A program made the position numbers and the translations under genes. This document shows, in pieces, positions 1,920 to 51,089 of a stretch of 51,089 nt of DNA. The first letter of the stretch is position 1. Each line of letters starts with the position of its first letter. This DNA comes from a virus. The notes beneath the pieces are model-generated. The model did not search any database. It was given only the letters and a program-made list of their open reading frames with translations, and was not told the origin of the DNA. The stretch is taken from the IMG/VR virus record IMGVR_UViG_3300048597_000630, positions 1 through 51,089 of that record, one strand, 5' to 3'.

Positions 1920-1948
1920 TTCGACTCCCCCCTAGGGGATACGATATT

Positions 1949-1954
1949 ATTATA
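1949..1954 (-). promoter_or_regulatory. -10 element for the 309/200-residue gene pair
   Basis: The minus strand reads TATAAT here, in an AT-rich patch. A start about 7 bases downstream would leave a leader of roughly 20-25 bases containing GGGGGGAG before the ATG at 1919. I see no convincing -35 at 16-18 bp spacing, so an accessory activator or an extended -10 would be needed. Confidence 0.4.
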
Positions 1955-2076
1955 TGATGGATTGCAAAATGGCCTGAGCGATCCCCTGACCGATGTTGCA
2001 CTGACTAGTCGCGCTTGATTGAAATATTTCGAGTGGTAGCGCTTCAGCGAGATCTACGGCGTTGATTTCATTGATC

Positions 2077-2353: not shown

Positions 2354-3205
2354 TTGGGTGTTTTTTCATCGCTAACCGCGGAAGAACGGGTTCAGGAGGC
2401 GCGGCGGCATCTCGACGCGCTGGAATCATGGCTTCGCCGACTCACCCACGAGAAAATGTCCGCGCGCTACGGAGCGACCTACCTTTCAAGCTCCGCGCCT
2501 ATTCCCGCGGGCATTCGGACTGAGGTCAATGCGAAAATCTCAAAACACAAGGGCCGCTTCCCGCGTGAAGCTGACGCGACCTCGTTTGGTGAACTGACCC
2601 AGATCATCGTTCACCCCAAGCTCTATGATTCGCTATTTCGTGATGCTCTATGCGAAGTTTTTCCTGCCGGAGCGCGCGATGCGGAGCTATTTTTTTCGCG
2701 ACTGCGACCGGTCCGAAACGATGTATCACATGGTCGGACCTGCTCGCTCCGGCAGCTGGAACGCGCAGTGTGCTATACCAATGACGTCATAGACGCACTC
2801 AAGAGCCACTATAGCGCGATGGGAACGAGAGACGTTTTCGCAGGCCCTACTTTTACGCGCTATGTCGATAGCTTGGGAAACGACCGGGCACTGACGCTGA
2901 ACGTAGGCGGCGAAGGCAATGTTCTTCCTTGGTTCGAATATCCGAAGTGCGACCTTAAGCCGGGCGACGTTTTGACAATCGATGTCGAAGTTGACGCCAG
3001 CTATTATCCTGATAGCTATGAAATCTTGTGGAGGTCACCATACGATAGCGGCGTCGGCCCTCACATCGTTGTCCCCATTACAGTGAAGTACGTGGCTGAG
3101 TCTTTTCCGCTTAGCATCGAGCTAATGGCCCGGCGGGACTGGCACCGGTTTAGTAGGTTCGACGATTCCATCCGCCTCCTTTTTCGCGCACTGCCACTGC
3201 CGTAA
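2354..3205 (+). CDS. HEPN-motif protein, candidate RNase effector
   Basis: A 283-residue protein. The N-terminal half is helical and carries RPVRNDVSHG at 118-127, so Arg121 and His126 form the R-x4-H motif of HEPN nucleases, in the form seen in Swt1-type and MAE-28990-type HEPN domains. The C-terminal half (about 170-283) is beta-rich, with phrases such as KPGDVLTIDVEV, and could be a sensor domain. The start is TTG with AGGGA about 9 bases upstream; the first ATG lies at codon 35, inside the helical domain. GC is lower than in the structural genes, and the protease gene follows 59 bp downstream. HEPN proteins in mobile elements are often toxins or abortive-infection RNases; activity here is inferred from the motif. 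Confidence 0.55.
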   Translation: MGVFSSLTAEERVQEARRHLDALESWLRRLTHEKMSARYGATYLSSSAPIPAGIRTEVNAKISKHKGRFPREADATSFGELTQIIVHPKLYDSLFRDALCEVFPAGARDAELFFSRLRPVRNDVSHGRTCSLRQLERAVCYTNDVIDALKSHYSAMGTRDVFAGPTFTRYVDSLGNDRALTLNVGGEGNVLPWFEYPKCDLKPGDVLTIDVEVDASYYPDSYEILWRSPYDSGVGPHIVVPITVKYVAESFPLSIELMARRDWHRFSRFDDSIRLLFRALPLP

Positions 3206-3828: not shown

Positions 3829-4545
3829 TCATGCGGGGAATAACTCCCCCTGCGTCACCGACCGCGTCAGCCGCTCGCACGCCGCGTCGAACCAGCGGCG
3901 CTCCAGCTCGATGCCGATGAATCGACGCCCTGTCCGGAGACAGGCCAGACCCGTTGTACCAGAACCCATATAGGGATCGGCTACGATCGCCCCCCGCGGC
4001 ACGCCCAGCTCGGCCATGCACCACATCATGATCTGCAGGCTCTTCTGCGTCGGGTGCCAGTGCTCGCCGCGCTCGCTCCCTCGCGCCGCGCCGCTCCACA
4101 ACAGGTTCTTCACCCGCGCCGGCCGGCGGCTTGAGGTCCAGGCGAGCTCACCGTCCGCCTGGTGGGTGCGCAGTTTGCCGATCCGCTTGTCCCAGACCAG
4201 CCAGCCCGGCGAATCCGGCAGGCGCGAGGCATAATGGTTCGCACCCCACAGACAGGTGATCGGCGCCAGGCCCAACAGCGGCCGCGGATCGAACGGCCGG
4301 TCGTCGCCGGCGATCGCCACATGCGCGAACTTATGCTGCCCGCCGCCGCCCGGCACATAGCCGATGCCATAAGGCGGATCGGCAACAAGGGCGTCGATCT
4401 GCCCGCGCAGGATCTCCAGCGCCGCGTGGCAGTCGCCCAGGAACAGGGCCGCATCGCCGATGCGGACGTGATCGTGCATTACCGCCGCAATGGCGGCCGC
4501 CAAGCGATCGAAAGGGGTGGTGCGGGGTGTCTCTTTCAGCTCCAT
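3829..4545 (-). CDS. DNA methyltransferase, N6-adenine/N4-cytosine, beta-type order
   Basis: A 238-residue AdoMet-dependent DNA methyltransferase. The catalytic motif IV is ADPPYGIGY (Asp56-Pro-Pro-Tyr59) and the AdoMet motif I is DPYMGSGTTGLA (190-201), followed by RRFIGIEL. Motif IV before motif I is the beta-class order shared with CcrM and HinfI-type enzymes, although this protein is shorter and lacks the CcrM C-terminal extension. HPTQKSL (164-170) is the usual link into the C-terminal motif block. There is no restriction gene next to it, so it is probably an orphan enzyme that protects phage DNA or alters gene expression. The 3' end is duplicated as a pseudogene at 2077-2276. Target sequence unknown. 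Confidence 0.85.
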   Translation of the reverse strand: MELKETPRTTPFDRLAAAIAAVMHDHVRIGDAALFLGDCHAALEILRGQIDALVADPPYGIGYVPGGGGQHKFAHVAIAGDDRPFDPRPLLGLAPITCLWGANHYASRLPDSPGWLVWDKRIGKLRTHQADGELAWTSSRRPARVKNLLWSGAARGSERGEHWHPTQKSLQIMMWCMAELGVPRGAIVADPYMGSGTTGLACLRTGRRFIGIELERRWFDAACERLTRSVTQGELFPA

Positions 4546-4699: not shown

Positions 4700-5050
4700 T
4701 CAGCGTCGCGCCAGAACGCGCCGCTTGGCGGCGTCGCCGGCCATCCAGTTGCGCATGGCGGTCGACGCCAGAAACCCCGCCCACGCCCCATTGAGAAGCG
4801 CTGAGAGGGCTTCCGTCCCCGGCTCACCCCGGCACGAGCGGTAGATGACGACGGCGAAGCCAAGCCCCGCCCCCAGCTTGATCCAGCGCCAGGCGGCATA
4901 GGGGCCACCGGTCCACTCGATCACGGCCGCCAACCAGGGATTGTCCTCGTCGAGCCCCCAGCGGAAATTGCGCACGGTCGAGGCGACGTCGGCGCCGTGC
5001 CCGACGACTGACGCCGCCGCGGCGATCGCCGCGATCAGTTCCGGCGTCAT
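4700..5050 (-). CDS. small membrane protein of the lysis cassette
   Basis: A 116-residue protein starting at an ATG that overlaps the stop of the Rz-like gene as ATGA, so it is translationally coupled to the spanins. Hydrophobic stretches lie at about residues 4-20, 55-75 and 83-100. It is the last gene before a hairpin. Holin, antiholin or a lysis-associated accessory protein are possible from position; I recognise no named family. A longer frame begins upstream at 5089 but has no ribosome site and would overlap the spanin gene further. Confidence 0.55.
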   Translation of the reverse strand: MTPELIAAIAAAASVVGHGADVASTVRNFRWGLDEDNPWLAAVIEWTGGPYAAWRWIKLGAGLGFAVVIYRSCRGEPGTEALSALLNGAWAGFLASTAMRNWMAGDAAKRRVLARR

Positions 5051-5655
5051 GGCGCCGCCTCCGCCGCTCGCCAGTGCGCTTCGAACCACCGGCTCATTTC
5101 GCCGGCGCGGGCGCGGGCCTTGCGTCGGTCTTCGGCGAGCCAGAGGAAGCCGCCGACGAGCCGATCGAACCCAAGCCCGGATAGGGCGCTGTCGGCTTTG
5201 TCACGACACCCGGCGGCAGCGGACAGCTCCGCGCGACGATCTGCGCCTCCGGCACGATCCGTGTCGTCGGCGGCGTTGTCGAGCACGCGGACAAGGCCAC
5301 AAGGCATAGGGATGCGAGCAATATCCTGCACATAACGGATCACCTCTCTCTCGGCTGTGCGGCCCGCGTCGATCGCGGCCGCTTCGGCATCGGCGGCGCG
5401 TTCGCTCGCCGCGTCGGCCGCCTCCCGCTGCTTGCGGGCATCGTCGGCGGCGAGCTCCGCCGCCGCTTTCCAGGTCTCCGCGGACTTGGCATTCGCCTCC
5501 GCCGCCGCCTGCGAGTCTTTCAGATCGCTCGCGGCCTCGGCCAGCTGCGCGTCCTTCCGATAGACCTCCAGGCGCTCGGCCTGCGCCCAAATGAAAAGGG
5601 CGGCTATCGCCGCCCCTGCCCCACTGATCAGATACCAGTTCACTGGCGCCTCCAT
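5047..5655 (-). CDS. i-spanin (Rz-like)
   Basis: A 202-residue protein with one N-terminal membrane anchor (about residues 7-24, cytoplasmic N-terminus) followed by a long Ala/Glu/Lys/Asp-rich coiled coil (about 27-105). This is the standard layout of inner-membrane spanin subunits. A second frame encoding a small lipoprotein lies wholly inside it, which strongly supports the call. Together the two would bridge the periplasm and fuse the membranes in the final step of lysis. It is longer than lambda Rz (153 residues) because of a C-terminal extension with two Cys and an Arg/Ala-rich tail. It lies 31 bp downstream of the 46-residue membrane protein. Confidence 0.8.
   Translation of the reverse strand: MEAPVNWYLISGAGAAIAALFIWAQAERLEVYRKDAQLAEAASDLKDSQAAAEANAKSAETWKAAAELAADDARKQREAADAASERAADAEAAAIDAGRTAEREVIRYVQDIARIPMPCGLVRVLDNAADDTDRAGGADRRAELSAAAGCRDKADSALSGLGFDRLVGGFLWLAEDRRKARARAGEMSRWFEAHWRAAEAAP
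5094..5333 (-). CDS. o-spanin lipoprotein (Rz1-like), nested in the Rz gene
   Basis: A 79-residue protein with a typical lipoprotein signal: hydrophobic residues 4-14, then the lipobox LSAC with Cys17 as the modified residue. The mature part is short and Pro/Ser/Ala-rich (TTPPTTR, PAPAPAK), as in Rz1 proteins. It is encoded in another reading frame entirely inside the Rz-like gene. Its ATG is preceded by GAGAGGTG at good spacing. Nested Rz/Rz1 genes are well established in lambdoid phages, and this is a clear example in an alphaproteobacterial phage. Confidence 0.82.
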   Translation of the reverse strand: MCRILLASLCLVALSACSTTPPTTRIVPEAQIVARSCPLPPGVVTKPTAPYPGLGSIGSSAASSGSPKTDARPAPAPAK

Positions 5656-5686
5656 TTCGGGTTTGCGTGAGAGGACACGGCCGCGC

Positions 5687-5827
5687 TCACCATGGCAGCA
5701 ACGCGCAGCGCGCGGCGGCGCCGTCCAGATAGGCGGCCGAGAGTTGGCCGCGCCAGGCCAGGCCCAGCACCATCAGCAGCACAATCAGCGCGAGATCGCG
5801 CCAATGCCGGAAGAGCCATCGGATCAC
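5687..5827 (-). CDS. 46-residue single-TM protein, lysis cassette
   Basis: The GTG start (5825-5827) overlaps the TGA of the upstream gene as GTGA. The protein has a basic N-terminus (IRWLFRHWR), one hydrophobic helix (about residues 11-25, LALIVLLMVLGLAW) and a short tail with one Cys. The size and position between the holin candidate and the i-spanin suit a small antiholin or pinholin-type protein. The tight coupling makes it very likely to be a real gene. Confidence 0.6.
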   Translation of the reverse strand: MIRWLFRHWRDLALIVLLMVLGLAWRGQLSAAYLDGAAARCALLPW

Positions 5828-6180
5828 GACGCACCCCCTTTCACGCGCGCGATCAGGGCGTCGACCCATTCCTGCAGCTTGGCGGCCAGCGGACGAAGGC
5901 CGAAGAGGAACATGACCAGCACCAACAGCGCGGTAGTCGCGGGTGCGACGGTGACGCCGAAATTCGGGGCGAGCGCAGTGAGGCCGAGCGCGATCATGTA
6001 GATCGCGGACGCGCTGGTCAGATCGGCCCCGAACCGCGTCCACCAGATGATCCACTTGCCGGTAACCGGGTCTTTCTCCGCCCAGCCGTTCGCCTTGAAG
6101 ATGAATCCGGCAAGAATACCGAACCCCGCCCAAATGGCGTGGTTGTCGGTGACGCCCGACCCGTCGAAATGCCCCCCCAT
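5824..6180 (-). CDS. holin candidate, three hydrophobic segments
   Basis: A 118-residue protein beside the endolysin. Hydrophobic segments lie at about residues 15-30, 55-73 and 80-97, with a charged C-terminus ending near VDALIARVKGG. Size, position and topology fit a class I-type holin, whose role is to permeabilise the inner membrane and release the endolysin. The other small membrane proteins of the cassette are rival candidates. It begins one base after the endolysin stop, so the two are coupled. Confidence 0.55.
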   Translation of the reverse strand: MGGHFDGSGVTDNHAIWAGFGILAGFIFKANGWAEKDPVTGKWIIWWTRFGADLTSASAIYMIALGLTALAPNFGVTVAPATTALLVLVMFLFGLRPLAAKLQEWVDALIARVKGGAS

Positions 6181-32152: not shown

Positions 32153-32455
32153 ATGCGGATCATTTACGACCCGAAAAAGCGCGACAAGACGCTTGCCGAC
32201 CGTGGGCTCGACTTCGAGCACGCAGCGGAGGTGTTTGCTGGCACCGTATTGAACGTGCCCGACATGCGCGTCGACTACGGCGAGGACCGCTATAATACCT
32301 ACGGCCTCCTGCATGGCCGGATGGTTGCGATCTCTTGGACGCAACGCGGCGAACTCTGCCGAATCATCAGTATGAGGAAGTGCAATGAACGGGAACAAGC
32401 CAGATACGCAGCGCAGCTGGCTCCTAGCGATCGACGAGCAGCTGATGGCGAGTAA
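32153..32455 (+). CDS. brnT: BrnT family toxin (RelE-fold ribonuclease)
   Basis: A 100-residue protein with the BrnT pattern: IIYDPKKRDKTLADRGLDFEHAAEVF at the start, the central RYNTYGLLHGRMVAISWTQRGELCRIISMRKCNEREQARY and a basic C-terminus. BrnT cleaves RNA and arrests growth, and is neutralised by BrnA. It is longer than typical (about 90 residues) because of a tail of some 15 residues. It lies on the plus strand inside an otherwise leftward early operon, with its own promoter, and its end overlaps the start of brnA by 71 bp. Confidence 0.88.
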   Translation: MRIIYDPKKRDKTLADRGLDFEHAAEVFAGTVLNVPDMRVDYGEDRYNTYGLLHGRMVAISWTQRGELCRIISMRKCNEREQARYAAQLAPSDRRAADGE

Positions 32456-33155
32456 GCCTTCTCTCGATGCGTTGAATGTGCTCGTGCTCGGCACGGCCGC
32501 TTCGCTGCCGTTTGCCCACAATCCGAACCATTTTGTTCTTGACGGCTTCTTTGGACAAGAGAAGCGTGTGTGGCGCCGAGCGACCTGCATGGTGGACGAG
32601 GGGACGCCGGGTATGTCGTATGCGTCTGGCGGCGACCCCGAGCCCAGGATTCTGGTCATGGCTGGTGGGGAGTCGGCCCAAGCTCCGCCAGAGACCAAGT
32701 CTCCCATTGAAGAAATACTGACCAAGATCTGGCAGCGAGTGGACGCGTTTTCGGATGTCGCCGAAGTCGTCAAAATTCTAGCGGAGCGTCTAACCGCGCT
32801 CGAGGCGAGCGCCCCCGCGCCACTCACCTTTAAGGGTCGAGGCAATTCAGTTGGACGCGCGCCAGCTCCGGCGTCCCATCCAAGAACGGATTTCGCCAAG
32901 GTGGACGCGCACGTCGTCCAGCCCGAGGAGTACGACGAAGTTCCGGAGCTAACGGATGACGCGGCGGCCGAAGCGGAAGTGTACCACGCCAATCGGCCCG
33001 CCAGGCGCGGCCGACCTCGAACAGGCAATGCCAAGGAGGCGATCAATATCCGCCTTTCGCAAGATGTGCTCACGGCGTTTCGGGAAACCGGTCCAGGTTG
33101 GCAGACGCGCATCGACGAAGCGCTGCGCCAGATGCTTGGTCTGGAGAGGCGATGA
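32385..33155 (+). CDS. brnA: BrnA family antitoxin with a large N-terminal insertion
   Basis: 256 residues. The start MNGNKPDTQ lies inside the NEREQ codons of brnT, as in ordinary brnTA pairs. The C-terminal 90 residues (167-256) are a recognisable BrnA: RTDFAKVDAHVVQPEEYDEVPELTDD, a GRPR basic segment and the ribbon-helix-helix IRLSQDVLTAFRETGPGWQTRIDEAL. About 150 residues are added between these parts (13-166), with a compact-looking domain (NVLVLGTAASLPF, GFFGQEKRVWRR) and a helical linker. Canonical BrnA has about 80-100 residues. The ribbon-helix-helix should bind and autorepress the operon. Confidence 0.75.
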   Translation: MNGNKPDTQRSWLLAIDEQLMASKPSLDALNVLVLGTAASLPFAHNPNHFVLDGFFGQEKRVWRRATCMVDEGTPGMSYASGGDPEPRILVMAGGESAQAPPETKSPIEEILTKIWQRVDAFSDVAEVVKILAERLTALEASAPAPLTFKGRGNSVGRAPAPASHPRTDFAKVDAHVVQPEEYDEVPELTDDAAAEAEVYHANRPARRGRPRTGNAKEAINIRLSQDVLTAFRETGPGWQTRIDEALRQMLGLERR

Positions 33156-33159
33156 ACTA

Positions 33160-34674
33160 TCATCCCGGTCCCTCGTACCCGTCATGCGGCGGCCGATCGT
33201 CGTCGCCATAACGCAGCTCGTTCGGGCGCAGCCGCGCCCCCTTGCGCGTCACTCGGCCCTTCGCGTCCTTGCCCGCGAACAGGACCTGCCGATCGGCGAG
33301 CGCGCGCCCGAACGCCGCCTGCTTGACCGGCTCGTGCCCGTTGTCCTTCGACCATGCCTCATAGTCGTGAAATAGCGTGCTTGAGAGCTCCCGGTGGCTC
33401 GGGTCGGCGATCACCCGGTCCATCCACCACTCGCCGAACGGGTTGGACGAGCGGCGGTAATCCTCGATCGCCGCCTTCATCTCGTCGGGCTCGTTCAGCC
33501 CCTCGTTCAGCCACCCCACGATGCCGGCGATGATCCAGTTGAGCACACCGCTCGCCTCCTGCTCGACGACATCGTCCTCGAACGTCTTCACCCGCTCTTC
33601 CTTGGGGATCTGGTTGGGCCAGAGGATCAGCTTCACGCGACGCCAGATGCCGTCGTCGTCGCCGCCGATGCGGATGCGCTTGTTCATCTCGATCCACAGC
33701 TTGAAGCTCGGCCGGTATTCGAAGAGGCCGAGGCCCAGATGCCGCGCGAGAATGGGCGTGCCGCCGGTGACGCTCTTGATGAGACCATCGTTCAGCACCG
33801 CATTGCGCGGCGGCTCGCCGGTCGAGCAGAGCCGCACATCGCCGCCCAGACGCGCGAGGTCGGGGCTGGCATCGGCGCCGCCCCGCATGCTCCCCTCCAG
33901 CCAGGTCTTGATGTCGCTCGTCGTGCCGTAGTCGCCGCCGACCCGGCGCAGGATGTTCATCGCGGTCGACTTGCCGTCGCCGCCCTTGCCCTGCAGCGCA
34001 ACGATGATTTGCTCGCGCGTCGAGCCGGTGAAGGTATAGCCCGCGGCATGCTGGAAGAACTGACGCACCCCATCCGAGGGCAGGCAGCGCACCAGATGCG
34101 ATTCCCATTTCGGCGCCGTCGCCTTGGGATCATAGGCGGCGGCCGCAATCCGCGTCATGCGCGCCTCGGGCGCATGCGGCTCCAGTTCGCAGCCCCATCC
34201 GTCCGGCCCGTTGCGCGTGAAGCGCAGGATCCCGTTCTGGACGTTGAGCGCGAAAGGATCGGGGTCGAGCTGCTCGCGCTTCACGTTGAGATAGGACTGC
34301 GCCTGCACCAGCATGGCGACAGTGCGGTTGCGATCGCCCGACCGCACCGACCAGCCAGCCAGCTTGTTGGCCCGCTCCTCGAGCATTTTCATATGTTCTT
34401 CGCCCTGGTCGCGTTGTTCCTCGATTAGGTCGCGGACGAATTTGGACTCCGCTGCGATGCCGCGCGCGGTTTCATGCGCCAGGCGGATCGCCAGCCGCTC
34501 GCCGTCGTCACTGCGCCAGGATTTCCCGTCCCAGCCGAACCACCCGACATCTTTCACGAAGATCAGCTTCCCCGCCGCCCGCGCCTCGAGGCGCATGGCG
34601 TTGCCGAGGTCGCCCATCTCCAGCCAGGCGAGCTCGCCCGGCGATGCGGCGGGGCGGAGCGTTTCGTCGCTCAT
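33160..34674 (-). CDS. phage/plasmid primase-helicase, P4/D5 type
   Basis: 504 residues from the ATG that overlaps the previous stop as ATGA. It is a superfamily III helicase of the P4-primase/D5 type: the Walker A motif is ALQGKGGDGKSTAMNILRR (near 230), followed by a KTWLEGSM-type segment and GEPPRNAVLNDGLIKSVTGG (sensor region). FEYRPSFKLWIEMNKRIRI is a conserved block of this group. The C-terminal winged-helix region contains LFHDYEAWSKDNGHEPV. It should unwind DNA at the phage origin together with the CHC2/Toprim primase two genes upstream. Confidence 0.88.
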   Translation of the reverse strand: MSDETLRPAASPGELAWLEMGDLGNAMRLEARAAGKLIFVKDVGWFGWDGKSWRSDDGERLAIRLAHETARGIAAESKFVRDLIEEQRDQGEEHMKMLEERANKLAGWSVRSGDRNRTVAMLVQAQSYLNVKREQLDPDPFALNVQNGILRFTRNGPDGWGCELEPHAPEARMTRIAAAAYDPKATAPKWESHLVRCLPSDGVRQFFQHAAGYTFTGSTREQIIVALQGKGGDGKSTAMNILRRVGGDYGTTSDIKTWLEGSMRGGADASPDLARLGGDVRLCSTGEPPRNAVLNDGLIKSVTGGTPILARHLGLGLFEYRPSFKLWIEMNKRIRIGGDDDGIWRRVKLILWPNQIPKEERVKTFEDDVVEQEASGVLNWIIAGIVGWLNEGLNEPDEMKAAIEDYRRSSNPFGEWWMDRVIADPSHRELSSTLFHDYEAWSKDNGHEPVKQAAFGRALADRQVLFAGKDAKGRVTRKGARLRPNELRYGDDDRPPHDGYEGPG

Positions 34675-35132
34675 GCCGAGGCCTCCGCCCGGCGCATCAC
34701 GCGCGCGATCGCCTGCGTCACGCGCAACGCCGCAGCATCGATATCGACCAGGCGATAGCCGACATTGACGACCGTCTCGATACGCTGCGCCCCGCCTTTC
34801 GTGGCGCGCCGCAGATGGCAGACCACCACCTTCACTGCCGCGCGATCGCGCCGGGCGCTCGCCGCCGTCGTTTCCATGACCGCGGCGAGGTCGCACGCGA
34901 GGACGGGATGGCCTTTGCGCTCGCACAGCACCCGCCACACCGCCGCCATCTGCGGCGACATCCGCACCGGCAGTTCGAGCCCGGGCACGATCACCTCGCC
35001 CGGCAACCGCGGGGGCCCATCCGCCCGCGCCAGCTCGCCAAGCTCGCGCGCGACGGCTTCCAGCTGGCGGCTGATACTTTCCACCTTCCGCGATAACTGC
35101 GCGGCGCGCACACTGTGGGCATAATCGGCCAC
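34671..35132 (-). CDS. winged-helix DNA-binding protein (OmpR-like fold)
   Basis: 153 residues. An N-terminal helical region (AQLSRKVESISRQLEAVARELGEL) looks like a coiled coil. A winged-helix domain follows: PQMAAVWRVLCERKGHPVLACDLAAV, a recognition helix with AAVKVVVCHLRRATKG and the wing RIETVVNVGYRLVD. The last phrase matches the C-terminal effector domain of OmpR/PhoB-type regulators. There is no receiver domain. It is coupled to both primase genes, so it may regulate the early operon or bind the origin. Confidence 0.65.
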   Translation of the reverse strand: MADYAHSVRAAQLSRKVESISRQLEAVARELGELARADGPPRLPGEVIVPGLELPVRMSPQMAAVWRVLCERKGHPVLACDLAAVMETTAASARRDRAAVKVVVCHLRRATKGGAQRIETVVNVGYRLVDIDAAALRVTQAIARVMRRAEASA

Positions 35133-35133
35133 T

Positions 35134-36357
35134 CTACCCTCGCGCCCTGTCCGCGATCGCGGCGTCGTTGAAATCCATGCCCGCCGGCGGGAACGCGGGC
35201 GTCACGCGCACCGCGCCCGCCCGCTGCCACACCTGTTTCACCAGGCTCGCTGCCAGCCGCGCCCGGTCGTCGGCGGTCAGCACCACGCGCGTCACCCGCT
35301 TGCGCCGGTCGCGCACCTTCGATTCGGCGGGCGCCATATCGCGGTCGATCAGCGCGATCACCTCACCCGCTTCCGGAAAGGTGAAGACCGGCCGCCCGCC
35401 GGGATCGAGCACCGGCGCCGCCGGGTCGAAACACCCGAACGCGTCGCGCTTCACCTTGCCCGTCAGATTGCCGAGATTGAGCGCCGCGGCGGCGCGATGC
35501 GGCCGCCCCTGGAAGTGCCGTGCCGCATAGGCCCAGACTGTCTCGATCCCCTCGCCGACCGCGAGCGGCCCGAGCGCGGCATCCATCGCCGTCAGCAGGG
35601 CGGCCCCGCCCAAGAGATCGCCCCATGCCTTGCGCGCCGGAATCGCTGCGCCCTCGCCGTCGATCAGACGCGCCTTCGCCTTGCCATCTCGCCGCAGATA
35701 GGTGCAGTGCAGCCCGGTCGGACGCCACGCCTGCAACGGCCCACTCCACGCCTCGACGCGCGCGAGCAAGGCGGGGCTGCGGATTTCCCATTCCCGCCCG
35801 TCCTCATAGCGCCCGGCGGCGGCGAGCGCCGCGGGATGAAAGCGCAGCCGGTCGAATCCGCCCGGGATCGCCTCGATCTCCAGCGCGCGGACAGCAAACC
35901 AGGTTTCCACGATCGTGCCCCGCGGCGACACCGCCTCGTTCCACATCTGCGCCGCCAGCCGCTGCACGAACTGCCGCCGCCGTTCGGCGCTTGCATCGTC
36001 CTTCGTGCGTCGCTCGATGTCGCGCGCCGCATCCGCCGCGCTGCGCGGCGCCGGACTCATGCCCGGCACCCAATTGATGATCTGCCGCGCCGCCTCCAGG
36101 CGATCGCAGCCCTGGCGTGCCGCGACCAGCTTGATCCCGTCGCCGCCATCGTCTTCCGAATGGCACCACCAGATGCCGCTTGCCTCATTCAAGGCGAACG
36201 GTGCCGAGCCCTTGCGGCCTGCTCCGCACAGCGGACACGCGGCGCGCAGCCAACCGCCGCTGCGCTGGAATTTTAGCGTCCCGATGAAGCGCGCCACGAT
36301 GTCGGTCAGCTTGACCCGCCGCGCTTCGGCGAAGATGGCGGCGGTGTCATCGCGCAT
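35134..36357 (-). CDS. DNA primase, CHC2 zinc finger plus Toprim
   Basis: 407 residues from the ATG at 36357, with GAGGTGGG upstream; an in-frame TTG at 36375 is less likely. The N-terminal zinc-ribbon has CPLCGAG and later IWWCHSE, as in CHC2-type primases with the order CxxC...CH. The middle contains RTKDDASAERRRQFV. The Toprim-like core contains ALGPLAVGEGIETVWAYA (Glu in GEGIET) and EVIALIDRDMAPAES (Asp-x-Asp in IDRD). It would synthesise primers for phage replication; the helicase is encoded separately. Confidence 0.85.
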   Translation of the reverse strand: MRDDTAAIFAEARRVKLTDIVARFIGTLKFQRSGGWLRAACPLCGAGRKGSAPFALNEASGIWWCHSEDDGGDGIKLVAARQGCDRLEAARQIINWVPGMSPAPRSAADAARDIERRTKDDASAERRRQFVQRLAAQMWNEAVSPRGTIVETWFAVRALEIEAIPGGFDRLRFHPAALAAAGRYEDGREWEIRSPALLARVEAWSGPLQAWRPTGLHCTYLRRDGKAKARLIDGEGAAIPARKAWGDLLGGAALLTAMDAALGPLAVGEGIETVWAYAARHFQGRPHRAAAALNLGNLTGKVKRDAFGCFDPAAPVLDPGGRPVFTFPEAGEVIALIDRDMAPAESKVRDRRKRVTRVVLTADDRARLAASLVKQVWQRAGAVRVTPAFPPAGMDFNDAAIADRARG

Positions 36358-36871
36358 CGCCCACCTCGCCGACAATGGCGTGGCGCGATCGCACGCCCAT
36401 GCTGTGCCTGGCCAGCTTGGCGCGCAGCCGCTGCAGATGGGTCTTCACCCAGCCCGCGCCGACCCTCAGATGGATCGTCAGCTCCTGCGTGCTCATGGAC
36501 CGCGTCAGCAGCGCGCGATAGAGCCGGTCCTCCGGCGCGGAGAGGCCGAGCGGATGGTAATCCGAAAAGCGCGCCTGATAGCCGCGCCGCGCCCGCGCGA
36601 GCGCGGTATTGCGGGCCCGCTGCGCCGCCGTGCGCCGGCCGCGTTTGGGCGGGGTGGCAACGTCCGGGGCGACGGGCGGGGCCTCCACCTTGGGTTCGGG
36701 CAACGTGGCCGGCGGCGGCGCCGTCACCGGCCGGACCGGCACGTGGGGGCTGGATGCGCCGCGCGCCAGTTCGAGGCGGCGCCGCTCCCAGGCCCGGCGC
36801 GCCTGCGCCTTGCCGGCGGCAATCGCGGCCCGCATGCGTGCGACATCGGTCGGCTCGATCTCGACGAACAT
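36347..36871 (-). CDS. hypothetical protein with C-terminal helix-turn-helix
   Basis: 174 residues from the ATG that shares its A with the GcrA-like stop. A helical basic N-terminus is followed by a Pro/Val-rich linker (about 45-80) and a C-terminal region with STQELTIHLRVGAGWVKTHLQRLRAKL, which resembles a helix-turn-helix. Two further upstream codons (MGSV) are in frame but not coupled. It is in the replication and regulation operon, between GcrA-like and primase genes. Function unknown; DNA binding is inferred. Confidence 0.55.
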   Translation of the reverse strand: MFVEIEPTDVARMRAAIAAGKAQARRAWERRRLELARGASSPHVPVRPVTAPPPATLPEPKVEAPPVAPDVATPPKRGRRTAAQRARNTALARARRGYQARFSDYHPLGLSAPEDRLYRALLTRSMSTQELTIHLRVGAGWVKTHLQRLRAKLARHSMGVRSRHAIVGEVGDAR

Positions 36872-37353
36872 CACAGATCCCACGCGCTGCGACGCGCCCG
36901 GCCGATATGCGTGCGCGGCTGATAGGGTTTGGACGGTGCGGTGCAGAGCGCGTCATGCGTCGGGCAATAGGAAGAGGGCCGCGATCCCCCGCCCGGCGTC
37001 GCCTTCAACAGCCGTGGCGCGCCGCACATCCCGGCCCCCGGCTCGCCGGGCGGGAACTGACAGCCGATCGCATCGCCGTGCACCGTGCGCCCCTCGACGA
37101 ACAACGGCGCGCGCAACGGCGCCACCGTCTGGGCTTTTCCGTCGCGGGGGACGCGGCGCTGCGGCGCCTTGGGCACGCGCGGCGCCTTCGGCACGGCCAC
37201 GCGCGCGCGGGCCCCCAGGCCGATACGATGCGCCTTGCTGATGCACCCATTGCGCGTCACGCCGCCGAGCGCCCGCGCGATCTGGCTGAACGACAGGCCC
37301 TCGGCAAAGAGCGTCTTCAGCCGGTCGATCCGATCGTCGGTCCATCCGCTCAT
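36871..37353 (-). CDS. gcrA: GcrA-family cell cycle regulator homologue
   Basis: 160 residues. The N-terminal helix-turn-helix reads WTDDRIDRLKTLFAEGLSFSQIARALGGVTRNGCISKAHRIGLGAR, nearly the textbook GcrA start. The C-terminal sigma-interacting part is kept: IGCQFPPGEPGAGMCG and SYCPTHDALC. In Caulobacter GcrA binds the housekeeping sigma70 and promoters methylated by CcrM at GANTC. Here it is directly downstream of an MT-A70 methyltransferase gene, with ATGA overlap. A phage copy could redirect host transcription or serve as the early-to-late switch. Confidence 0.88.
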   Translation of the reverse strand: MSGWTDDRIDRLKTLFAEGLSFSQIARALGGVTRNGCISKAHRIGLGARARVAVPKAPRVPKAPQRRVPRDGKAQTVAPLRAPLFVEGRTVHGDAIGCQFPPGEPGAGMCGAPRLLKATPGGGSRPSSYCPTHDALCTAPSKPYQPRTHIGRARRSAWDL

Positions 37354-37946
37354 GCGACGGCCCCGAACTTGGTGGATTCATTGCCCCAGACGGACCAACC
37401 GGGGCGCTCGGTCCGCGCAAACATTTCCAGACGCGGCACATCGCCGGTCAGGCGGACGATGCTGTCGGCGATGTCGTCGGGCTTGCGGCTGTGCTCGCGC
37501 AGCGGCGCGAAGACGACCTGCGCCTCACTTTGGGAAAGCCGGTCATAGCCCTTGCCGCGCGTCGCCAGCCAGCACTGTTCCGCGCCGCTGCGGGTGTGAT
37601 AGCCGAGCCCCAGGCGGACATCCTCGCCGGCATAGAAAAGGCGATCCTGCCCCTGCCGCTCCGCGACGCCTTTGATCTTGATCCACACATAGGCGACCGT
37701 CTTGAAGGTGAAGCCCCAGGCCTCGATGAGGCGCAGCGCGTCGGGCAGCATCGGCTGCACCACCCACATGAACAGCGCCGCATCGTCCGCCGCACACGCC
37801 GCCACCGGCAGCGCCGCCATGGCGGCCAGATCCATCACGTCATAATGCTGCGACGCGCCCTTGCCCTGCCCCCGATGCGACCAGGTCGCGAACGACCAGG
37901 CAGGGTCGGCATAGATGACGGAAAAGGGCCCGGGCGGGAGCATCAT
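37350..37946 (-). CDS. MT-A70 family adenine methyltransferase
   Basis: 198 residues from ATGATG at 37941-37946, coupled to the previous stop. The catalytic motif is FSVIYADPAWSF (Asp14-Pro-Ala-Trp17), a DPAW form of the usual DPPW. It continues with LFMWVVQPMLPDALRLIEAWGF and FKTVAYVWIK, the standard MT-A70 order, and ends with PRLEMFARTERPGWSVWGNE, which matches the C-terminal motif of phage members. It should methylate adenine in DNA at N6 (RNA possible). Shielding from restriction, or making the mark read by the GcrA-like protein, are both plausible. Confidence 0.85.
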   Translation of the reverse strand: MMLPPGPFSVIYADPAWSFATWSHRGQGKGASQHYDVMDLAAMAALPVAACAADDAALFMWVVQPMLPDALRLIEAWGFTFKTVAYVWIKIKGVAERQGQDRLFYAGEDVRLGLGYHTRSGAEQCWLATRGKGYDRLSQSEAQVVFAPLREHSRKPDDIADSIVRLTGDVPRLEMFARTERPGWSVWGNESTKFGAVA

Positions 37947-38164
37947 GCGCCGCTCCGCGCCGCGGCCGCCAATCGGATGCGGCCATACCCCTTGGGCGAC
38001 AGGCGGTAGAATTCGACGCGCCCCAAATCGCGCAGACCATTCCACGTCGCGCGCGTGAAGGGCGCCGTCTCGCCGGCGGCGAGGACGATGCCGTTCCGGT
38101 CCAGCGTGCCGTCGCCGTTGTGCTTGGCGAGCCAGTCGAGGGCCGCGCGTTGGGCCGCGGTCAT
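37943..38164 (-). CDS. 73-residue hypothetical protein, early operon
   Basis: Starts at the ATG overlapping the DnaA-like stop as ATGA and ends in the start of the MT-A70 gene. The sequence MTAAQRAALDWLAKHNGDGTLDRNGIVLAAGE looks like a small winged-helix or helix-turn-helix, with a second half TRATWNGLRDLGRVEFY. The two tight overlaps make it very likely to be a real gene. Function unknown. Confidence 0.6.
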   Translation of the reverse strand: MTAAQRAALDWLAKHNGDGTLDRNGIVLAAGETAPFTRATWNGLRDLGRVEFYRLSPKGYGRIRLAAAARSGA

Positions 38165-38571
38165 CGCGACGCCTCCGCCCCGTACAGCGCGACGATCTCG
38201 CCGCGCAGCGCATCGACGCTCAGGTAGTAGGCCCCACCCGCCTCCATCAGCGCGCGGCACCGCTTGATCCCGTGCGCGATCGCCGTGCGGTCCATGCCGG
38301 TATGCAGCGCGATCTGATAGCGCGTCAGGCCCGCCGCCTCCGCCGCGAGGAACAGCGCCGCGAAGCGCCAGGGCGCCACGGCCTTCGATTTGGGCACGCG
38401 CAGATCGGCGACCGGCAGCCGCGCCTCGCGCGCCGCCAGCTGGAAACACGTCTCTACGATGATCCCGGCGCGCAGCCGCGCCATGGCTTGGGCGCTGGCC
38501 TCGGCGGCGGCAGGGCGCGGAACCGGCGGCGTGCGCCGTTCGGCCCCGGCATAGGCGGCGAGCGCCTTCAT
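38161..38571 (-). CDS. DnaA domain IV-like DNA-binding protein
   Basis: 136 residues from the ATG at 38571 (ATGA overlap). The C-terminal half has VVDAL-like helices and LTRYQIALHTGMDRTAIAHGIKRCRALM, which parallels the signature of DnaA domain IV (GRDHTTVLHA-type helix) that binds DnaA boxes. There is no AAA+ ATPase domain. A stand-alone domain IV could guide the phage origin, block host DnaA or act as a transcription factor. Related small proteins occur near replication genes in other alphaproteobacterial phages. Confidence 0.65.
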   Translation of the reverse strand: MKALAAYAGAERRTPPVPRPAAAEASAQAMARLRAGIIVETCFQLAAREARLPVADLRVPKSKAVAPWRFAALFLAAEAAGLTRYQIALHTGMDRTAIAHGIKRCRALMEAGGAYYLSVDALRGEIVALYGAEASR

Positions 38572-38981
38572 GGCGAAGCACCGTCGGGTGTTCGCGAAAC
38601 CCATGCCACCGCAGCCAGCGCAGCCGCGCAGCGCGCCGTCCACCACGCGGGGTGACAGGCGGCGTGCAACAGGGCCGGCAGCGAATTGCGATACGTCTTC
38701 CCGTCCCGCACGACGGTCTCGACCTGACCGGTCAGCACGGCGACGAACGGCACCGCCGCATCGACCGCCTGGCCGCACTCCAGGCAACCCACCGCCGGCA
38801 GCACCGGTGGCAGCTTGGCCATGCCCGTATTGAGCGAGCCCCAGCCACCCGCGGGCACGGGGAGGATCGCCTCCCGCGGGGGCTGGGGCGCTGCCGCCGC
38901 GGCTTCGACGCGCACCGCCGCCACGGGCGCATCAACGTGCCGTCGCGGCGGCAGATCGAAGAGGGAGGACTGCTCGGCCAC
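38568..38981 (-). CDS. hypothetical protein with Cys/His cluster
   Basis: 137 residues from a GTG one base after the stop of the DUF2303 gene; a TTG at 39011 is in frame but overlaps that gene. The N-terminus (EQSSLFDLPPRR) resembles a beta-clamp or partner-binding peptide (QxxLF-type). A possible zinc site is made of CLECG (near 65) and HAACHPAW (near 107). The first feature could suggest attachment to the replication clamp, but this is only a motif reading. It lies in the early operon. Confidence 0.5.
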   Translation of the reverse strand: MAEQSSLFDLPPRRHVDAPVAAVRVEAAAAAPQPPREAILPVPAGGWGSLNTGMAKLPPVLPAVGCLECGQAVDAAVPFVAVLTGQVETVVRDGKTYRNSLPALLHAACHPAWWTARCAAALAAVAWVSRTPDGASP

Positions 38982-38982
38982 G

Positions 38983-39879
38983 TTAGGCAGCCGTGGTGAC
39001 GCCGGCGCCAATCCGTCCCGTCAGCACCTGGCGATCCGTGCGACCGGCAATGTCCTGACCGATGCGGTTGAAAACCGCCTGCTGGATGAAGACGGGCCGA
39101 TGCAGCTGGATACCGATGCCGAGCGCGCCGCTGTCGAGTTTCCAGCGGAGGAAGGCATTCACCTCCAGCGGCGGCTCATTCATGTAGACCGGGATCTGCA
39201 GCACGAACATGCGCGGCACATCGATCTGCCCGCTCTTGGCCTGCGCGACCGTCTCCTCGGCATAACCGAAGGCTTCATCGCCATTGTCGAGCCGGATCGC
39301 GCTCTTCCAGTTCACATTGCGCCGCGCCGACAGGTCTTTCGCGACCTCCAGCAGATCGGCGCCGCTCGGGCGCAACACGTCGGCGGCGTTCTCTTCCAGG
39401 AACTGCGCGAACTCCATCTGGGGCAGCAGCTTGCCGCTGATGCCAGACCAGCGTTTCCATTCCTCGCTGCGCTGCAGTTTCAGCGTCGCGCGGTGCTCGA
39501 TGAAGTTTGCTTCCTCGGCACCATGCCAATCGATCTGCGCGCTGAAGGTGTCGTCGAACGGATCGGCGAAGATGATCGTGGAATCCGTCCGGTGACGGAT
39601 GATGTATTCGCTGAGCGAGTCCTTATCGAGCAGCTCGACCTTCTGCTTGATGCGGCCCGGCGCCGGCACGATGAGGTTGTGCGGGTCCGTCACCTCCTTG
39701 GCGGTGACGCCCTCCGGCAGGATCATGAAGACCCGAGCATCAGGGGTAACGAGGATCTGCGCCTTGCCTGCCGCTTGCACGCCGAGGGCCGCGATCGCGG
39801 CTGCTTCGGTCGTGAAGCCGGCGGTATCCAGCTTCAGAACGTCGAGATCGACGGAAGCTGTCTTGCTTTTGCCTGCCAT
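38983..39879 (-). CDS. DUF2303 (YfdQ-like) protein
   Basis: 298 residues behind a strong ribosome site (AGGAG). It contains DPHNLIVPAPGRIKQKVELLDKDSL, FADPFDDTFSAQIDWHG and EFAQFLEENAADVLRPSGADLLEVAKDL, which I recognise as the DUF2303/YfdQ family, often found beside recombination or replication genes in prophages. Molecular function is not known. It is followed by the GTG of the Cys/His protein and preceded by the 108-residue partner gene. Confidence 0.78.
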   Translation of the reverse strand: MAGKSKTASVDLDVLKLDTAGFTTEAAAIAALGVQAAGKAQILVTPDARVFMILPEGVTAKEVTDPHNLIVPAPGRIKQKVELLDKDSLSEYIIRHRTDSTIIFADPFDDTFSAQIDWHGAEEANFIEHRATLKLQRSEEWKRWSGISGKLLPQMEFAQFLEENAADVLRPSGADLLEVAKDLSARRNVNWKSAIRLDNGDEAFGYAEETVAQAKSGQIDVPRMFVLQIPVYMNEPPLEVNAFLRWKLDSGALGIGIQLHRPVFIQQAVFNRIGQDIAGRTDRQVLTGRIGAGVTTAA

Positions 39880-40260: not shown

Positions 40261-40764
40261 TCAGCGTTTCCTCCTCGGGGGTTTGACGGGCGGCGCCGGC
40301 CGCAGGAAGTCGCCGGCAGCATCGAGCCGCACGCGCGCGGCGACCGCGGCGCGGATGAGATCGTCGAGTTCGCGGCGCATGACCGGCTTTTCGGAATCGT
40401 CGATTTGGCCGTCACCGAAGGCGCGGCAGAGTTCGCTGGAGAATTGCCCGTGCTCGCCGCAGACCTGTGCCGCCAGTTCGGCGAAGGCGGCATCGTCCAC
40501 CTCGCCGGGCACGAAGACGCCGCCCGCATCGGCGGCGAGCGCTTCGGCCGCGACGGTGCTGTGCGTCGCGACGGTCAGGCGGCGGACCTGGTCGAAGGTG
40601 ATCTGCGTGTCGATGTCGCGATCGCAGTAATCGTAGACCGCGCGCTCCTTGCGCTCGAGCACGAAGGCAGCGGGCTTCACCCCGCCGGCATCGTCGATGA
40701 AGCGTTGCACGACCTCCTTGGTCGTCGCGTAGCCGGCCGGGGCCTTGTAGGGCTTGAAGCTCAC
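40261..40764 (-). CDS. CII-like phage regulatory protein
   Basis: 167 residues from a GTG overlapping the preceding stop as GTGA. The N-terminus has TTKEVVQRFIDDAGGVKPAAFVLERKERAVYDYCD, and the middle has FAELAAQVCGEHGQFSSELCRAFGDGQIDDSEKPVMRRELDDLI. This layout, a DNA-binding front and a helical tail with the FGDGxI-type segment, resembles the phage regulatory CII/CP76 family. It is the third gene of the leftward operon after Cro-like. It could promote lysogeny by activating cI or int promoters. The C-terminus is Pro/Arg-rich. Confidence 0.55.
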   Translation of the reverse strand: MSFKPYKAPAGYATTKEVVQRFIDDAGGVKPAAFVLERKERAVYDYCDRDIDTQITFDQVRRLTVATHSTVAAEALAADAGGVFVPGEVDDAAFAELAAQVCGEHGQFSSELCRAFGDGQIDDSEKPVMRRELDDLIRAAVAARVRLDAAGDFLRPAPPVKPPRRKR

Positions 40765-40949: not shown

Positions 40950-41284
40950 GCCGCCCCCTCGACCCGCCGCAATTGCGCCGCCCCATTGCGGTCGCATTCC
41001 GGCCCGTCAGCCGTCATGTTTCCGGGATGGACGACCTCACCCCCCTGCTCCGCCGCCGCCCGCATCGCGGCATCCGCGTCGAGGTCCTCGAACAGCCGGT
41101 CGAGGCGTTCATGGGCGCGCAGCAGCGTACGCGTGCCGACATCGGCGCCGTTGCGCAGTGCGCCGATGCGCTTCCCGTCGCCGAACAGGTGATCGGAAAG
41201 CCCGCCTTCCTTGCGGCCGCTGCGCGCACAGTAGTCGTCGATGCGCGACAGCAAGGGGCTGATGAGGGTGTTGGTCTGGGTCAC
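40946..41284 (-). CDS. Cro-like regulator
   Basis: 112 residues from the GTG at 41282-41284. It contains ISPLLSRIDDYCARSG, SDHLFGDGKRIGALRNGADVGTRTLLRAHERLDRLF, a helix-turn-helix with a D-G-K-R-I type turn that I have seen in small Cro-type repressors of alphaproteobacterial prophages. It is transcribed away from the cI gene and its start lies beside the operator cluster, as expected for Cro. It should repress cI and shut off early transcription at later stages. A frame continuing upstream crosses the operators and is not used. Confidence 0.62.
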   Translation of the reverse strand: MTQTNTLISPLLSRIDDYCARSGRKEGGLSDHLFGDGKRIGALRNGADVGTRTLLRAHERLDRLFEDLDADAAMRAAAEQGGEVVHPGNMTADGPECDRNGAAQLRRVEGAA

Positions 41285-41299
41285 GGCGCGGATGATTAT

Positions 41300-41371
41300 C
41301 GGGATTTTTCCCGAATGCAAGTCCGTGATTCTTCCCACATGCAAATTGGCGGAAAATCGGGGAATTTCCCT
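41300..41371. promoter_or_regulatory. operator cluster between cI and cro (OR-like)
   Basis: Three related sites. O1 41300-41313, CGGGATTTTTCCCG, is a palindrome with arms CGGGA/TCCCG. O2 41325-41338, GTGATTCTTCCCAC, matches mainly in one half. O3 41358-41371, CGGGGAATTTCCCT, is close to the cI start. O1 and O2 are each flanked on the minus strand by TTGCAT, 24 bases apart. The cro promoter probably uses TTGCAT and TAATCA on the minus strand, with O1 between them. Confidence 0.75.
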
Positions 41372-41374
41372 ACT

Positions 41375-42136
41375 ATGGCTGCCAAATCAGATCTGACCAC
41401 CGTTCCCGCGACCCCCACGGCGCTCAAGGAACGCGTGCAGTCCCGGCTCGATGCCCTCGGTCTCTCCGCGCTGGCGGCCTCCACCCAGGCCGGCCAGGGC
41501 GAATCCTTCGTGCGGGATATCCTCCGCTTGCGGGTGCGCAGCCCGCGCGCCGCGGCCCTGGCGGAACTCGCCCGCGTGCTGCAGTGCTCGACGGACTATC
41601 TCTTGGGCCGCAGCGAGGAAGTTGGCGCACCGCCGGTGCCGGCCGTTTTCATCGCCGGGACCTTCGACACGTTCCCCTTACACGTTCGCCACGATGTGGC
41701 CGCCGGGGTCTGGCTCGAGCTGGAAGATCATTCCCAGGTCCCGCCCCCGCTCTCCCCGTTGCGGTCAGCGCCCGAGTGGCCGTCCGCCGATCAATGGGTG
41801 GCCCGCGTGGTGGGCGATTCAATGAACGAGCTTTATCCGGAGGGCTCCTATGTGCGGCTCGTCAGCGTCTTCGCCATGCAGAACTTCCAGCCACGCACTG
41901 GCGACCATGTCGAAGTCGTCCGCAAGCGCGACGGCGGCGCGCTGCGCGAGACGACGCTGAAGGAAGTGCGCGTCAACGACGACGGCAGCATCGACCTCGT
42001 CTGCCGCTCCAACAATCCCCGGTGGAAGGATCCGATCCCCTACCGTGACGGCGTGAAATCGCCGGACGACGGCGCCGAGGTGATGATAACCGGCCTCGTG
42101 ACCGGCGATGCCCGGATCCGTCCGGTCCGGCGCTAG
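41375..42136 (+). CDS. CI-type repressor with S24 peptidase domain
   Basis: 253 residues. The N-terminal domain (about 15-80) is a helix-turn-helix of the XRE type, with ERVQSRLDALGLSALAAS and CSTDYLLGRSEE at its end. The C-terminal domain is a LexA/S24-like peptidase: cleavage-site-like Ala110-Gly111, catalytic Ser149 in GDSMNELYPEG, and Lys196 in TTLKEVRV. It should keep the prophage silent and cleave itself after RecA activation by DNA damage. The ATG at 41375 overlaps the third operator and lacks a strong ribosome site, compatible with weak or autoregulated translation. Confidence 0.88.
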   Translation: MAAKSDLTTVPATPTALKERVQSRLDALGLSALAASTQAGQGESFVRDILRLRVRSPRAAALAELARVLQCSTDYLLGRSEEVGAPPVPAVFIAGTFDTFPLHVRHDVAAGVWLELEDHSQVPPPLSPLRSAPEWPSADQWVARVVGDSMNELYPEGSYVRLVSVFAMQNFQPRTGDHVEVVRKRDGGALRETTLKEVRVNDDGSIDLVCRSNNPRWKDPIPYRDGVKSPDDGAEVMITGLVTGDARIRPVRR

Positions 42137-49676: not shown

Positions 49677-49981
49677 CGCCCGCTGAGATTTCCGCCCTTC
49701 CCGCCCGCATCAAGATCGGCGTCGTGGCTCACCTGTCCGGCTACAGCCGGTCGACCGTCAAGCTGCGCATCGCCGACGGCCTGTTGCCAAAACCCGTGGA
49801 TGGAACATTCTATGAGACGTCCGCCGTCCTCAAAGCCCTTGGTATTGAAAACCGAGGCGGCGCCCCGATTGGAAATGCCCCGCCTCAAAACCGTGGAACT
49901 GGTCGTCCCGCAGTACCTCGTCGGCCGGCCCAACGCCGCCGGACGGTGGTCGTTCCACTTTCAGGTGCCCGCGCGCCATAG
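49673..49981 (+). CDS. AlpA/excisionase-like DNA-binding protein
   Basis: 102 residues, ATGA overlap with the previous gene. The N-terminal 60 residues form a MerR/AlpA-type helix-turn-helix: ARIKIGVVAHLSGYSRSTVKLRIADGLLPKPVDGTFYETSAVLKALG. The C-terminal 40 residues are Arg/Pro-rich and overlap the integrase gene in another frame by up to 182 bp. Small proteins of this type next to integrase are usually excisionases or regulators of int. The C-terminal tail may be dispensable. Confidence 0.65.
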   Translation: MTPAEISALPARIKIGVVAHLSGYSRSTVKLRIADGLLPKPVDGTFYETSAVLKALGIENRGGAPIGNAPPQNRGTGRPAVPRRPAQRRRTVVVPLSGARAP

Positions 49982-51089
49982 GCCCGAAGGCTGGCCAGGC
50001 GCCCGCCGGCTGCCGCTCGACCCCGCCCTGCGCACCGGCCTGGGCGACGATGTGGAGTGGCGCGCCGCGATCGCCGACGCCGAACAGCTCTACAAGCAGA
50101 TGGCCGCCGAGAAGGCCCGCCTCCGGCCCGTCCTCGAGCCCCACGGCACGATTCACTGGATCGTCGCCCGGATCACCGACGCGGAGGTCAACTATGCCTG
50201 GGATGAGCACAGCGCGGCCACCCGCAAGAACTACTTGAGCGACTTCCGGACCCTGAAGGATTGGGCGATCGAGCTGGGGCACCCGCACATCGCGCAGGTC
50301 AGCCGCAGCCAGCTAGGCGACCTCCTGAAGAGGTTTCGGGCCAAGCCCTTCAAACAGAAGCACCTGAAATCTGCCCTCGCCTACATCTACAAGCGGGCGA
50401 TCGCCGACGAGCTCGTCCAGGCCACCCTCATCGACAAGCACCTCGCCCTCGCCCAGCAGCCCAAGTCTGAACCGATCGAATGGACGGCCGCGGACGTCGA
50501 TGCGTTCTGCGCCCGGGCGATCGCGCGCGGCCAGCCCTCCCTCGCCAAGGCCATCCGCCTGAAATGGTGGACGGGCATGCGCAATACCGACCTGTTGGCG
50601 CTCACATGCCCTAAGCATGTCTTTCGCTCCCAGGGCCAGTGGATGGTCGACATCAACACGTCGAAGCGGGGGCGGCCGGTGATCACCCGGCTAACAGCTG
50701 ATGTCGCCGCGCTGCACGAGGCCGAGCTGGCCGGCGCCGCCAAGCCCGGCACAGAGGCAGGCCCGCGCCCGTTCCTTGTGAATGAGCATACAGGGGGGCC
50801 GTGGACCGAGCGGCCCTGGCAGCACAACGTCGCCGAGATCCTCGGGGAGATCGAACGGGGGCATCTGAAGCCCGGCTGGCTGCGCCATACGGTGATGACC
50901 ACGATGGACGAGGCCGGCATCAGCGACGCCGCCAGCGCCGCGGTCGTCGGCCATTCGCCGAGCGGGCATGTCCGATTGAAGGAGCGCCACTACCGAATGC
51001 GGACGAAGGTGCTTGCCGAGCAAGGTCTGTCCGGGCTAGAAGCCCACCGCTCCGCTGCACAGAACAAAGAACGAAAGTCTGACGACTGA
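49800..51089 (+). CDS. int: tyrosine recombinase, prophage integrase
   Basis: 429 residues from 49800; starts at 49812 or 49875 (MPRLKTVEL) are also possible, since none has a strong ribosome site. The N-terminal arm-binding part and SAM-like domain (about 105-225, with ATRKNYLSDFRTLKDWAI) precede the catalytic domain. Catalytic residues: Arg261 in TGMRNTDLLAL, Arg362 in PGWLRHT, His385 in VVGHSPSG and Tyr398 in ERHYRM. The usual first His of the HxxR box is Gly359. It should integrate and, with the AlpA-like protein, excise the prophage. It is the last gene in the window. Confidence 0.88.
   Translation: MEHSMRRPPSSKPLVLKTEAAPRLEMPRLKTVELVVPQYLVGRPNAAGRWSFHFQVPARHRPEGWPGARRLPLDPALRTGLGDDVEWRAAIADAEQLYKQMAAEKARLRPVLEPHGTIHWIVARITDAEVNYAWDEHSAATRKNYLSDFRTLKDWAIELGHPHIAQVSRSQLGDLLKRFRAKPFKQKHLKSALAYIYKRAIADELVQATLIDKHLALAQQPKSEPIEWTAADVDAFCARAIARGQPSLAKAIRLKWWTGMRNTDLLALTCPKHVFRSQGQWMVDINTSKRGRPVITRLTADVAALHEAELAGAAKPGTEAGPRPFLVNEHTGGPWTERPWQHNVAEILGEIERGHLKPGWLRHTVMTTMDEAGISDAASAAVVGHSPSGHVRLKERHYRMRTKVLAEQGLSGLEAHRSAAQNKERKSDD

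Follow-up and report, generated by a model that had tools for sequence, protein, structure and literature searches.

The stretch of DNA analysed here (the window) is the whole of IMG/VR virus record IMGVR_UViG_3300048597_000630, 51,089 bases in length. It probably belongs to a temperate phage of an alphaproteobacterium, with an early operon transcribed opposite a CI-type repressor gene (Table 1). The leftward operon encodes, in order, a CII-like activator, a DUF2303 protein, a protein resembling DnaA domain IV, a 73-aa protein, an MT-A70 class adenine methyltransferase, a GcrA-like protein, a 175-aa protein with no family match in Pfam or PHROG, a primase-like protein, a winged-helix regulator and a D5 helicase. 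A near-twin phage (IMGVR_UViG_3300048597_000670; G001/L134) served as the reference for dN/dS and conservation. Genes were called with a home-made codon-usage caller and not a standard program; across the 78 gcrA loci described below, this caller missed gcrA in 9, which were mostly handled by position. The segment 32062-33159, which the twin lacks and whose flanks are contiguous there, carries a gene for a BrnA-type antitoxin (32385-33155; Pfam 1.2e-20). Near the left end, positions 2354-3205 gave a HEPN_Swt1 match that is weak (2.6e-4) and falls below the family cut-off, and positions 2068-2280 hold what is left of another copy of the beta-class methyltransferase's C-terminal part, 75% identical over 40 aa to that enzyme in the twin.

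Table 1. Features of the window that bear on the gcrA and methyltransferase genes.
Feature	Position	Strand	Evidence
Beta-class N6/N4 DNA methyltransferase, 238 aa, near left end beyond late genes	3829..4545	-	Pfam N6_N4_Mtase 2.8e-15; PHROG 67 2.4e-36
D5-type replicative helicase/primase	33160..34674	-	PHROG 1156 3.8e-108; Pfam D5_N 1.5e-20
Winged-helix regulator, Trans_reg_C type	34671..35132	-	Pfam Trans_reg_C 7.6e-6
Primase-like protein (DUF7146, zinc ribbon)	35134..36357	-	PHROG 510 DNA primase 9.8e-31; Pfam DUF7146
Next operon gene after gcrA, 175 aa, C-terminal half helix-turn-helix-like by eye	36347..36874	-	Gene call; dN/dS 0.53 against twin
gcrA-like gene, 160 aa	36871..37353	-	Pfam GcrA 3e-18
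MT-A70 class adenine methyltransferase, 198 aa, motif DPAW	37350..37946	-	Pfam MT-A70 5.1e-22; PHROG 359 1.5e-75
Small 73-aa protein, just upstream of the MT-A70 gene, which it overlaps by 4 bp	37943..38164	-	Gene call; 96% identical in twin
DnaA domain IV-like protein	38161..38646	-	Weak Pfam Bac_DnaA_C 0.015; 98% identical in twin
DUF2303 early protein	38983..39879	-	Pfam DUF2303 1.3e-53
CII-like transcription activator, early in the same leftward operon	40261..40764	-	PHROG 101 3.1e-17
CI-type repressor with S24 peptidase domain, transcribed away from the operon; true start probably ~41372	41027..42136	+	PHROG 4 9.4e-13; Pfam Peptidase_S24
Tyrosine integrase	49875..51089	+	PHROG 1 1.1e-12; Pfam Phage_integrase 2.6e-7

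The sequence-only reading of this DNA had described a GcrA gene overlapping that of an adenine methyltransferase with a DPAW motif, together with a second, beta-class methyltransferase at the left end. All of these features were borne out: the family matches of gcrA and the MT-A70 gene are far stronger than chance would give, the near-twin phage has both genes in conserved form, the methyltransferase carries the motif as VIYADPAW, and the beta-class gene lies where it had been placed. The two genes share 4 bp (37350-37353). Overlaps of 4 bp are common to five consecutive genes of the window, from 38646 down to 36347, and that between gcrA and the MT-A70 gene is thus ordinary operon packing; we therefore rejected it as a sign of special coupling.

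The window GcrA scored 67 bits against a Pfam cut-off of 26.9. It comprises a Myb-like DNA-binding domain (residues 1-46), a variable linker (~47-92) and a diverged sigma-interacting segment (~93-160), a layout that can be set beside that of C. crescentus GcrA, with its DNA-binding domain at 1-45, a linker and a sigma-interacting domain at 108-173 (PMC7403470). The predicted model has a mean pLDDT of 77, with 83-97 in the DNA-binding blocks, and its DNA-binding domain matches that of C. crescentus in complex with methylated DNA (5yiv and 5yiu) at 0.6 Å over 43-46 residues with 60% identity (0.6 Å and 60% to 5yiv_A; Z 7.8 to 5yiu). Both Pfam and the structure match place the N-terminal GcrA DNA-binding domain (residues 1-45) in the window protein. 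The sigma segment retains C98, P101, C110, Y129, C130 and H133, columns that are invariant in 35 phage GcrAs, within the motif C-x-[WF]-P-x-G-[DE]-P...CG...YC..H; it has diverged by a W to F change and a longer insertion. A direct sequence search of this segment against solved structures returned nothing, and the sigma-interacting domain 5yix was reached by sequence alignment through a phage intermediate. VIA-align rows for the model cover residues 1-53 only, with the DNA-binding domain, a result that does not count against a sigma segment, and the Foldseek alignment with 7ye1_G spans 149 columns at 17 Å because the linker is flexible. Judged by these residues and matches, the phage protein is truly of the GcrA type and has kept both of its functional ends. 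A preference for m6A-methylated GANTC, for which the conserved features are the fold and the family residues, is putative, as is binding of sigma-70 domain 2 and RNA polymerase.

The neighbouring enzyme covers the Pfam MT-A70 profile whole (positions 1-172 of 172), matches PHROG 359, annotated 'DNA methyltransferase', and finds METTL3 and other MT-A70 chains in the PDB (~1e-9). At the position of the catalytic DPPW motif it reads DPAW, as do 17 of 80 phage relatives (58 have DPPW), and DPAW is on this comparison a natural variant of the motif. We rejected the enzyme as a GANTC methyltransferase of the phiLM21_p027 type on both homology and motif, since BLASTP against phiLM21_p027 gave no significant alignment (E 0.15) and DPAW stands in place of the NPP[YFW] of that type. 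Enterobacterial phage MT-A70 enzymes act on GATC or on 16S rRNA: an E. coli prophage enzyme with a partner protein prefers 16S rRNA, and its close relative M.EcoGV methylates GATC in DNA when overproduced (PMC10810198). Phage records with MT-A70 enzymes numbered 350 and were mostly from Vibrio, Klebsiella and Escherichia, outside the alphaproteobacteria. Among the best 80 viral relatives of the window enzyme, a GcrA match was present in 9 records, one of them weak. GcrA, a protein of alphaproteobacteria, would not be expected in the E. coli host of M.EcoPA8orf6770P and M.EcoGV. The closest relatives of the window enzyme (58-72% identity, including Hoeflea prophages) have no gcrA; they lie in early regions, where several adjoin primase or helicase genes.

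Comparison with the twin gave 82% amino acid identity and a dN/dS of 0.39 for gcrA, with most differences in the linker (changes affect about 3 of 46 DNA-binding positions and 5 of 70 sigma-segment positions). The MT-A70 enzyme is 99% identical with a dN/dS of 0.04, which suggests a working enzyme, and the beta-class methyltransferase is 95% identical with a dN/dS of 0.06. These ratios indicate purifying selection on both gcrA and the MT-A70 gene, and both look functional.

Using a GcrA profile search of viral records, we identified 78 loci, whose records contained MT-A70 enzymes in 12, Dam-type enzymes in 7 and N6_N4 enzymes in 17; the majority had none of these matches. In records of at least 20 kb, to which the uniform-placement test was limited, an MT-A70 gene lay less than 1 kb from gcrA in 5 of 9, against 0.38 expected. 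When all classes were considered, 28 non-redundant gcrA loci had a methyltransferase no more than 5 kb away, and in 20 of them the nearest one was within two genes of gcrA; a further class from PHROGs, phrog_799, directly followed gcrA in several loci. Adjacency of MT-A70 and gcrA requires at least 6 changes on the MT-A70 tree and so arose or was lost repeatedly, and in L188 and L191, phages related to each other, the methyltransferases upstream of homologous gcrA genes belong to different families (MT-A70 and Dam).

RusA, an early recombination gene, provided a control. It lies at most two genes from gcrA in 9 of 11 loci and is the commonest annotated direct neighbour of gcrA by Pfam (7 of 111, beside 3 for MT-A70 and 1 for N6_N4), while in Rhizobium phages RHph_I3_18 and RHph_Y25 RusA is directly followed by the same kinds of methyltransferase with no gcrA between. 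As RusA lies as close to gcrA as the methyltransferases do, much of the clustering reflects early-module layout, and the uniform-placement statistics alone are insufficient as proof of pairing. Proximity of gcrA and methyltransferase genes is thus recurrent and explained at least partly by module layout. Four loci (L146, L164, L168 and L170) share a conserved order of RusA, gcrA and a small methyltransferase (phrog_799, with NPPW in most), sometimes with a Dam-type enzyme next; this arrangement resembles the site of the late regulator Q, beside RusA in some lambdoid phages. Separately, the 252-aa GcrA of L083, encoded at 1303-2061 (-) immediately next to an MT-A70 gene, has its DNA-binding domain twice in tandem, and the doubled domain is also found in L090 and L091.

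One phage of this set, L162 (IMGVR_UViG_3300031454_000230), carries a gcrA gene (4986-5462) that overlaps by 4 bp a methyltransferase gene (5459-6175) whose product is 51% identical to phiLM21_p027, a proven GANTC-specific phage methyltransferase (PMC5537653). Homology predicts GANTC specificity for the L162 enzyme, and it is L162, not the window, that holds the best candidate for a true reader-writer pair.

GANTC sites are depleted in both phages, with 78 against about 179 expected in the window and 57 against 181 in L162. Conservation of GANTC between window and twin was 45%, inside the 38-79% range of other words, and special conservation was rejected on this basis. No GANTC occurs in the early promoter region of the window (40950-41026 or 38647-38982). 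A single site lies in the probable CI-Cro gap of the window (41327) and of the twin (9523), the gap sequences of which do not align; the L162 gap has no GANTC, so this site is not a recurring feature. Two sites in a divergent region of L162 (9914 and 9964) were set aside, as the flanking genes are not a repressor pair and the sites may be due to chance. Across 63 gcrA loci, GANTC density was 1.76-fold higher in promoter-type intergenic than in coding DNA (p 4e-7), compared with 0.99-1.27 for five control words of the same composition. In gcrA-free alphaproteobacterial loci the value was nominally lower, at 1.34-fold (p 0.07). The promoter enrichment fits GcrA acting on phage promoters and is a lead, not proof.

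On balance, we think it probable that the phage GcrA acts like its cellular counterpart and that MT-A70 is a parallel orphan enzyme linked to it by co-expression. The Myb-like domain would bind promoter DNA, with a preference for GANTC already methylated by the host CcrM, and the C-terminal C/C/C/H segment would dock on domain 2 of sigma-70, steering host RNA polymerase to phage promoters and/or host S-phase genes. MT-A70 would meanwhile protect phage DNA from restriction or alter host marks, tied to gcrA through the early module and not as its dedicated writer. This early-operon account is supported because the closest MT-A70 relatives sit in early regions that are free of gcrA, and because RusA is as close to gcrA and pairs with methyltransferases without gcrA between. 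Against it count methyltransferases nearer gcrA than module-scale placement predicts (20 of 28 loci; 5 of 9 against 0.38), the six or more adjacency changes on the MT-A70 tree and the 1.76-fold promoter enrichment of GANTC in gcrA phages, which fits GcrA reading phage promoters.

These same observations bear on the self-contained write-and-read switch that the sequence-only reading had proposed. In a dedicated module of this kind, MT-A70 would methylate phage or host promoters, GcrA would activate them via sigma-70, and methylation after entry or replication would time expression. A genuine GcrA does adjoin an adenine methyltransferase in the early operon of a temperate phage, and the two genes are directly adjacent and probably co-expressed; the proximity recurs across several methyltransferase families, L188 and L191 have different families upstream of homologous gcrA, and in L162 the overlapping gene resembles a GANTC enzyme (PMC5537653). 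The part of the proposal that was not supported is MT-A70 as the writer of GcrA's mark: the enzyme is unrelated by BLAST to phiLM21_p027, its near relatives occur in phages without gcrA, and its enterobacterial counterparts act on GATC or 16S rRNA (PMC10810198). With GANTC depleted and conserved no better than control words, and most gcrA phage records lacking an MT-A70, Dam or N6_N4 match, we consider such a dedicated module unlikely in the window. A portable form, in which unrelated methyltransferases (MT-A70, the phiLM21 type in L162, the Dam type and small NPPW enzymes) would write a mark that the neighbouring GcrA reads on phage promoters as a methylation-timed switch, is doubtful to the same degree. 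Somewhat less probable again is that MT-A70 acts on RNA such as 16S rRNA, making its proximity to GcrA irrelevant to DNA marks; the E. coli prophage enzyme with its partner prefers this substrate, and the solved structures nearest to the window enzyme are those of eukaryotic MT-A70 proteins, of which several methylate RNA, but M.EcoGV methylates DNA when overproduced (PMC10810198) and no partner gene was identified in the window. We give least credence to a decoy role, in which the phage GcrA would compete on sigma-70 or methylated sites, block host GcrA and slow the host cell cycle: the diverged sigma segment (W to F, longer insertion, no solved-structure match) could bind without activating, yet comparison with the twin shows strong conservation at both functional ends and every invariant residue of the 35 phage GcrAs is present.

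Compared with C. crescentus GcrA, which acts with CcrM as a cellular sigma-70 cofactor dependent on methylation, the window protein has a matching DNA-binding domain (60% identical, 0.6 Å) and keeps the C/C/C/H motif; it differs in being phage-borne, with an MT-A70 enzyme and not CcrM as its neighbour and with putative sigma binding and methylation dependence. A GcrA with a Pfam match is also encoded by phiCbK-like phages, which differ as giant lytic Caulobacter phages, and the passages describing it mention no adjacent methyltransferase (PMC3556154). GcrA of this type was not found by tblastn with the window query and was reached only from another phage GcrA, at ~30% identity. Agrobacterium phage Atu_ph08, like the window, combines GcrA (gp5) with several methyltransferases, although these are other enzymes and no MT-A70 gene overlapping gcrA is described (PMC6630229). 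Enzymes of the phiLM21_p027 type are, like that of the window, phage orphan adenine methyltransferases near a replication module, but belong to the NPPY/F/W family, to which the window enzyme has no significant BLAST similarity (PMC5537653), while M.EcoPA8orf6770P and M.EcoGV are likewise phage MT-A70 enzymes, with a motif of the DPPW type, whose targets are 16S rRNA, if a partner is present, or GATC, on overproduction (PMC10810198). Sinorhizobium phiLM21-like prophages also include GcrA genes (PMC12429752), and in Brevundimonas host GcrA is needed for expression of the structural operon of a prophage, a precedent for GcrA-dependent phage genes (PMC7987155). The novelty earlier attached to a phage methylation reader and writer was therefore overstated, as phage GcrA (PMC3556154), phage GANTC methyltransferases (PMC5537653) and both kinds of gene in Atu_ph08 (PMC6630229) have been published. 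Our search, which reached few subscription papers, found no report that treats gcrA and a methyltransferase gene as partners in phages; apparently new is that the two lie side by side and do so repeatedly, the partner in L162 being closely related to an enzyme of proven GANTC specificity.

Should the neighbouring enzyme prove to be GcrA's writer, these phages would possess both halves of an epigenetic reader-writer pair, and GcrA, familiar from control of the host cell cycle, would double as a switch for phage genes. L162-type phages make this question directly testable. Even if MT-A70 is not the writer, the phage GcrA is a small, testable candidate sigma-70 cofactor, and the recurrent order of RusA, gcrA and methyltransferase suggests that GcrA is a frequent part of the early module in these phages.
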